Shown here: positions 6,270 through 21,268 of the stretch, one piece after another
Layout of the letters: each line of letters begins with the position of its first letter
Numbering within the stretch: the stretch's first letter is position 1
NCBI GenBank assembly: GCA_028716745.1
Contig: JAQUPE010000001.1
Location: forward strand, 94,203-146,064
Direction: 5' to 3'
DNA: 51,862 nt
DNA from: Minisyncoccota bacterium
GTDB taxonomy: Bacteria > Patescibacteriota > Minisyncoccia > UBA6257 > 02-FULL-45-10c
Notes under the pieces: generated by a model
Databases searched by the model: none
What the model was told of the DNA's origin: nothing
What the model saw: the letters and a program-made list of their open reading frames with translations, nothing else
Translations under genes and position numbers: made by a program

Positions 6270-6281
6270 CCAAAAACAAAC

Positions 6282-6319
6282 CTGTATATTATATGTTACA
6301 ATTATCATATAATATACAA
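6282..6319. repeat. 38-bp palindromic intergenic element, copy 1
   Basis: ctGTATATTATATG-ttacaattat-CATATAATATACaa, perfect 12-bp arms; near-identical to reverse complement of 14011-14048. Confidence 0.8.
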
Positions 6320-6360
6320 CTTAGAATTTGGGGATTTGAGATGAATTAATAAGTAATGAT

Positions 6361-20047: not shown

Positions 20048-20554
20048 ATGGAAATACCTAAGCGCAGATCGGATAAATTCAGAAAATTGCAGGATGACGG
20101 CCCGATTCATCTTACAAAAGAAGGATTCAGGCTTTTAAAAGAAAAACTTGAGCATCTTAAAAGTATTCAGCCCGCTCTCATTACCCGAACAAAGCAGGCA
20201 GCTGAATGCGGGGATAGATCGGATAACGATGAATATAAGGAAGCAAAAATGCTTTTGCGCCGCACGCAAGGACAGATTTTAAATATCGAATATCAAATTA
20301 AGCGAGTCGTGGTAATTGATTCCGGCCCGAATATTTCCGGTAAGGTTCAAATCGGCTCCACTGTTATATTAGAAACAAATGGAACTCGCAAAACATTCCA
20401 AATTCTTGGTTCTCATGAGTCAGATCCGTCTAATGGACGCATTTCATTCAAGTCTCCGCTTGGCGCTGCGCTTATAGATCATAAAAAAGGCGATACAGTA
20501 ACGGTTGAGACAAAAGGCGGTTCTCAAAAATATTTTATTCTTGAGGTTAAATAA
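20048..20554 (+). CDS. GreA/GreB-family transcription factor paralog
   Basis: IHLTKEGFRLLKEKLEHLK; AAECGDRSDNDEYKEAK tip; SGKVQIGSTV; SFKSPLGAALIDHKKGDTVTVE. Confidence 0.85.
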   Translation: MEIPKRRSDKFRKLQDDGPIHLTKEGFRLLKEKLEHLKSIQPALITRTKQAAECGDRSDNDEYKEAKMLLRRTQGQILNIEYQIKRVVVIDSGPNISGKVQIGSTVILETNGTRKTFQILGSHESDPSNGRISFKSPLGAALIDHKKGDTVTVETKGGSQKYFILEVK

Positions 20555-20595
20555 TTCTTGATTAAAATCCCTCGATTGTTACTTTGGGCAAAAAA

Positions 20596-20711
20596 AGACG
20601 CCCCGGGTTGTTCCCATAGGCGCCTCCTAGAAGTTGCTCCGGGCTTGTCCCATAAGCAACGCTCTAGACGTCATTCCGGAAATTACCCCGGGTTGTTCCC
20701 ATAGGTTTTCC
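20596..20711 (-). repeat. Three tandem hairpins with near-identical 16-nt nested loop; distal one is a terminator
   Basis: Minus-strand loops TATGGGAACAACCCGG, TATGGGACAAGCCCGG, TATGGGAACAACCCGG enclosed by three different complementary stems; the distal hairpin is followed by U7. Confidence 0.8.
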
Positions 20712-20725
20712 AGAATTATTTTCTC

Positions 20726-21160
20726 TTAGGCAGGAGATGGCTTAGGCTGGAGCAGCGACAAGTCTTTGATTGCCTCCCAGGTTATGCCGCTGGTGAATTT
20801 CCAGGATCTGATCTTTGTTCCCGGCTGATGGATGAATAATCCTATCGGTAACGTATCCACGTTCATCTTCCGATACTCCTCGTAGTCCTTTTGAGAAACT
20901 ATCGAGAAAGTATTGTAGTTGAGGCGGTCGTAAAGGATTATGTCTCCGGGCTTGATCTCCCTTTTGTTTTTCCAGGCGATCGGGCCGAACTTCGTGCGCA
21001 CATAAGCCTTTCTCTCGTTTCGGTCCCTCCACCATTCGTCCGGAACAGGATAGAAGCTGAGACTGCTTACTACTTCGACATGTTCCAGCCATTCAATGTT
21101 TAACGACTTGAACAGCCTCTCGCGTTCTTCCGGGTTTGCCGGAATTTCGAATTCCTCCAT
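20726..21160 (-). CDS. Hypothetical protein (144 aa)
   Basis: SD aaggag upstream of ATG; candidate promoter TTGACA-18-CATTAT at 21239-21210 (minus); GC-richer codons. Confidence 0.75.
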   Translation of the reverse strand: MEEFEIPANPEERERLFKSLNIEWLEHVEVVSSLSFYPVPDEWWRDRNERKAYVRTKFGPIAWKNKREIKPGDIILYDRLNYNTFSIVSQKDYEEYRKMNVDTLPIGLFIHQPGTKIRSWKFTSGITWEAIKDLSLLQPKPSPA

Positions 21161-21268
21161 TAGCCATTCTCCTTATGTTTTGGATTTTTTTGCTTGAAAA
21201 ATACTACCTATAATGTAAAGGATTTCTGTTTTTTGTCAATAATTTTTTATGTTATTATTTTAATAAAT

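Follow-up and report, generated by a model that had tools for sequence, protein, structure and literature searches.

Three tandem hairpins with near-identical tips in the 3′ UTR of a patescibacterial ORFan

Introduction

We considered a stretch of 51,862 nucleotides from the genome of a Minisyncoccota bacterium (contig JAQUPE010000001.1; hereafter the window, whose numbering is used for all coordinates unless another locus is named), in which three tandem hairpins with near-identical tips follow a gene on the minus strand. The question raised by this locus is whether the repeated tip is a site read by some partner or whether the three hairpins are together an mRNA end, and, in either case, how hairpins with different stems came to share a tip. 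RNA regulation in Patescibacteria is little known, and the array, if it did bind a regulator, would give these bacteria a rare case of control at the RNA level.

Position and structure of the array

All three hairpins are present on the minus strand, letter for letter as a first-pass annotation of the sequence had written them. Hairpin 1 (UUCUGGAAAACC-core-GGUAAUUUCCGGAA) is at 20674..20715 with its core at 20688-20703, hairpin 2 (CUAGAGCGUUGCU-core-AGCAACUUCUAG) at 20627..20667 with its core at 20639-20654, and hairpin 3 (AGGCGCC-core-GGCGUCU), which is the stem of a predicted intrinsic terminator, at 20596..20625 with its core at 20603-20618; a U7 tract lies directly 3′ of this last stem (20590..20596, minus strand). 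Folded alone, the three have energies of -17.8, -19.1 and -18.2 kcal/mol, respectively. Their 16-nt cores are TATGGGAACAACCCGG, TATGGGACAAGCCCGG and TATGGGAACAACCCGG, constant except for a 5-nt loop (identities among the copies of 16/16 and 13/16), and hairpins 1 and 3 are identical across 20 nt (CC-core-GG). The outer stems differ in sequence and their arms are paired in all three hairpins, as the first-pass annotation had it; the hairpins are, however, longer than it described, and the stem of hairpin 1 is imperfect (GGAAA-A-CC against GG-UAA-UUUCC). What it called a shared 16-nt loop does exist as a near-identical core, but it is mostly helix: a U-G pair, a bulged A, a second U-G pair, three G-C pairs, with the GGG paired in every copy, and a pentaloop (AACAA or ACAAG).

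The array does not belong to the 3′ region of the open reading frame, where it had been placed, but to the 3′ UTR: the ORF, a genus-restricted ORFan of 144 aa (20726..21160, minus strand), ends before it, and the array begins 10 nt past the stop codon. It occupies the gap between two convergent genes, the ORFan and a GreA/GreB-type transcription elongation factor gene on the plus strand (20048..20554; PF01272, 6.1e-24; PF03449, 2.2e-15). On the minus strand neither hairpin 1 nor hairpin 2 has a U tract, the next letters being UGACGUC and GAGGCGC. Read on the plus strand, hairpin 1 precedes UUAUUUUCUCUU, a sequence that might contribute to ending the greA-type transcript; this site is absent from the list of our terminator scan. 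The same simple consensus scan missed hairpin 3 with its U7, probably owing to the bulge.

The ORFan gave no family with a meaningful score in Pfam, NCBIfam or PHROGs and its protein no phage match, and the DNA had no match in plasmids or phages. Among all the genomes searched the gene was found in just two species, this one and a sister species of the same genus (G015), with one further weak match in the class search. The AlphaFold model (pLDDT 44) is too poor to judge. A promoter-like TTGACA with a -10-like site lies at 21210..21239 (minus strand), called from its consensus match alone; TTGACAAAAAAC is common to the G015 orthologue. The ORFan has a GC content of 0.49 against 0.40 for the genome, and its GC3 of 0.63 puts it in the top 2% among ORFs of 90 aa or more; a GC-rich group of this kind (GC3 > 0.5), perhaps of acquired genes, comprises about 8% of ORFs. 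A distant, paralogue-like relative in G015 (L019:2052-2435, 28% identical) is followed by a plain terminator.

Folding of the transcript

The 147-nt stretch that holds the array folds on the minus strand with -59.4 kcal/mol (z -5.0), and none of 200 shuffled sequences did equally well. The plus strand reaches -43.6 kcal/mol (z -2.3), in a different shape, and it loses the G-U pairs, which are 10 of the 46 pairs across the three hairpins. This advantage of the minus strand, together with the 10 G-U pairs, points to a structure of the ORFan RNA and not to a DNA palindrome, in agreement with the RNA-level structure first proposed. By fold energy this is the strongest 3′ flank among the 569 genes with a G015 orthologue (mean -26.3, sd 7.8) and the seventh strongest locus of 50,386 windows of 130 nt taken on both strands. 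Chance is ruled out as an explanation of the array.

Comparison with the sister species

The one orthologous locus found is that of G015, at which the ORFan protein is 65% identical and the third codon position is identical in 67 of the 93 codons for the same residue. There are two hairpins in its 3′ UTR. The loop of the first, CCGGAAAUA..UAUUUCCGG, is unrelated; the second is a terminator, GGCGCCCATGGATTCAATCCTGGGCGC-U7. This terminator can be aligned with hairpin 3 without a gap; one pair is changed on both sides (G-C to A-U), three are changed on one side, and the cores are identical at 10/16 positions. With its GC-rich stem and U7, hairpin 3 is terminator-like, as had been suggested for the last copy. 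Hairpin 2 has no counterpart at the G015 locus. Hairpin 1 probably corresponds to the first G015 hairpin, which is in the same position, has a similar stem and matches it at about 13 bases; if the two are homologous, the G015 hairpin is without the core. On these alignments the terminator alone, of the two G015 hairpins, is clearly related to the array.

As a benchmark for this conservation we took 57 pairs of orthologous genes from the two species and called their terminators with one detector. The identity of 0.69 between hairpin 3 and its G015 counterpart comes about 25th among these 57 pairs; hairpin 3 is as well conserved as an ordinary terminator, and no better than the terminators of other orthologous genes. 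Past the ORFan terminator, G015 has a second small GC-rich ORF (L018:2363-2572, minus strand) with a strong Shine-Dalgarno-like site and no PHROGs family.

Search for further copies

The pattern TATGGGN{3,8}CCCGG has three matches in the whole genome of 660,737 bases, all of them in the array, and Rfam 15 returned nothing relevant at either gathering or permissive thresholds. We built a covariance model (R1) from four hairpins, the three described here and the G015 terminator. It detected no further array in 17 genomes of the family, 387 of the class and 382 of the phylum; these samples overlap, and the class and phylum samples were scored with stricter filters, under which G015 itself went unreported in both. 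The best other match (32.8 bits, in genome G639) was a single plain terminator with a different core, ACCGCCTTCGGGTAAAACCCGGGGCGGT-U5 or longer. The weak matches of the model were rejected as relatives, being ordinary or unrelated hairpins. In the 17 family genomes and in 245 genomes of the order the core pattern gave, outside the window, scattered single matches in about the number expected by chance, and the loose family pattern read backwards gave matches of a similar order. The three further matches in the order genomes were all outside stem-loops with paired flanks. We also scanned the genome for further hairpins with a common tip; under an arm rule stricter than hairpin 1 itself satisfies, only parS sites came up.

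For a conserved RNA family one looks for orthologues and covariation in several genomes, and what we found is one orthologue of one hairpin. The pair count over the four hairpins looks significant, and we discarded it as evidence, three of the four hairpins not being orthologous. The first-pass annotation had proposed an RNA element under structural selection and suggested Rfam and a covariance model as the check. Neither array nor covariation appeared in the family, class and phylum samples, there is no Rfam family, and the sole orthologous locus is without the array; these searches give no support to a conserved RNA element.

Origin of the shared tips

The copies within this species are closer to each other than hairpin 3 is to its orthologue, so the cores have probably been copied recently in this lineage; with an old, selected binding site the orthologue would be expected to be about as similar as the copies, and the reverse is seen. 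Hairpins 1 and 2 would then probably carry recent local copies of the terminator tip, an order of events that rests on one comparison, the gene being known from only two species. The unit that was copied would span 16-20 nt, and the stems outside it are unrelated in sequence. Precisely, the apical 16-20 nt of hairpin 3 would have spread into hairpins 1 and 2 by a short duplication or by template switching in replication, which is a published route for making and mending hairpins (PMC8794818). No template-switch points could be reconstructed here, and the copying of a loop into unrelated stems is unusual, which counts against this account.

The stems of the three hairpins appear to have separate origins. 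Stems of separate origin that differ and yet pair, and likewise the covariation among the four hairpins, are not evidence of a common structure. The stems had been called compensating; their descent from one stem is not shown, and stems that differ and pair are not by that an evolutionary compensation. The array illustrates that pairing stems which flank an invariant tip can mimic covariation without being homologous, and that loops can be homogenised between adjacent hairpins inside one species.

Function of the array

We consider it likely that the array is an intrinsic terminator behind two hairpins that stabilise the 3′ end, its tip having been copied locally into both. Hairpin 3 with its U7 would be an ordinary Rho-independent terminator, common to the sister species and predicted to be used. 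Judged by what is generally known of bacterial 3′ UTRs, a stable 3′ end is the likeliest role: the stacked hairpins would make termination more reliable and keep 3′-5′ exonucleases off the end of the mRNA. They would also separate the ORFan transcript from the convergent greA-type gene, as a backup against read-through. Read-through between convergent genes, as well as small RNAs derived from 3′ UTRs, has been reviewed (PMC7821165). It is improbable that a dedicated factor reads the tip sequence, and the array as a whole is a real, mostly ordinary and unusually strong mRNA end.

Like Rho-independent terminators, including tandem ones, the array has a GC-rich stem and U7 directly past a gene, also at the orthologous locus, and it shows the bulge and small-loop outline of other terminators in these genomes; unlike them, it has two more hairpins without U tracts upstream, which share the tip. 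Terminators that are built alike, with a bulge, a short helix and a small loop, but differ in sequence occur in this genome (L049) and in G639. This outline, a stem, often a 1-nt bulge, a short helix and a small loop, was seen at unrelated genes (L049:10151, plus strand; L069; G639:C1:148214-148245), and it may be widespread among the terminators of these genomes.

Alternative explanations

The first-pass annotation had also suggested a protein- or RNA-binding array or an independent ncRNA, neither of which is indicated by the data above. In the former, the hairpin with its bulged A, GGG/CCC helix and pentaloop would be a recognition site present three times, for a regulator that binds in several copies and might be the ORFan protein itself or a sponge-like target. 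A core that is constant but for the 5-nt loop, on stems that differ, is what such a site would look like, and a bulged A is a typical feature of hairpins that are bound specifically, the operators of RNA phages among them. The array resembles operators of the MS2 and PP7 type in having a bulged A under a short helix and a small loop, and differs from them in sequence and helix length; we know of no coat-protein-like partner for these hairpins. The site is, however, not kept in G015, whose first hairpin has an unrelated loop and whose terminator core is changed at 6/16 positions, and neither the rest of this genome nor the sampled relatives contain a copy. The sponge RNAs CsrB and RsmZ also have several hairpins with a repeated tip, but in our array the G run is paired, there is no unpaired GGA in the loops and, as far as seen, it is not a separate RNA gene; moreover, the CsrA family (PF02599) is absent from both this genome and G015. 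We regard this explanation as unlikely. Species-specific acquisition would also account for the missing relatives. A narrower form of the idea seems to us slightly less probable still: that the three bulged-A hairpins are a young array peculiar to this species, and that a dedicated regulator, which might be the ORFan protein, binds them and thereby governs how the ORFan mRNA decays or is processed.

Of the same low probability as the binding array is a small RNA derived from the 3′ UTR, whether processed out of the mRNA or transcribed from a promoter of its own, with its end at U7. The array is compact, stable, about 120 nt long and ends in a terminator, and small RNAs of this kind are known in other bacteria (PMC7821165); but we found no promoter-like site on the minus strand between the region of the ORF start and the array, and the sequence is neither conserved nor matched by an Rfam family.

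Three insertions of a mobile DNA palindrome of the REP or MITE kind (the first-pass annotation had also raised a DNA-level mobile repeat) would explain a near-identical core at three adjacent places with different flanks, but this is very improbable: all three copies in the genome are here and none elsewhere, which refutes a dispersed element, the strong strand asymmetry of the fold and the G-U pairs are not expected of DNA palindromes, and copy 3 is at an orthologous terminator. With the REP/BIME palindromes of enterobacterial 3′ UTRs, whose hairpins are thought to guard mRNA against 3′-5′ decay, the array has in common stable hairpins downstream of a stop codon; it differs from them in being undispersed, with three copies at a single place, and in that the stems are not common to the copies.

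Dispersed palindromes and parS-type sites

The scan for tip-sharing hairpins led to six perfect parS-type sites, TGTTTCACGTGAAACA, in this genome (G000:C12 18465-18716, locus L036), spaced about 39-50 bp apart; several of them are lengthened by flanking dyads, e.g. TAGATAATTGTTTCACGTGAAACAATTATCTA. A separate AT-rich palindrome of ~38 nt, in the window at ~6278-6325, is dispersed over about 15 sites in this genome, with sequences like TTGTATATTATATGATAATTGTAACATATAATATACAA (G000 loci L023, L024, L026, L029, L030, L035, L040, L049-L053 and L055). The same palindrome occurs in G015 at about 12 nearly identical sites (TTGTATAGTATATGCTAATATTAGCATATACTATACAA; loci L083, L084, L089, L096, L097, L108, L115, L123 and L126), each species having its own homogenised version.
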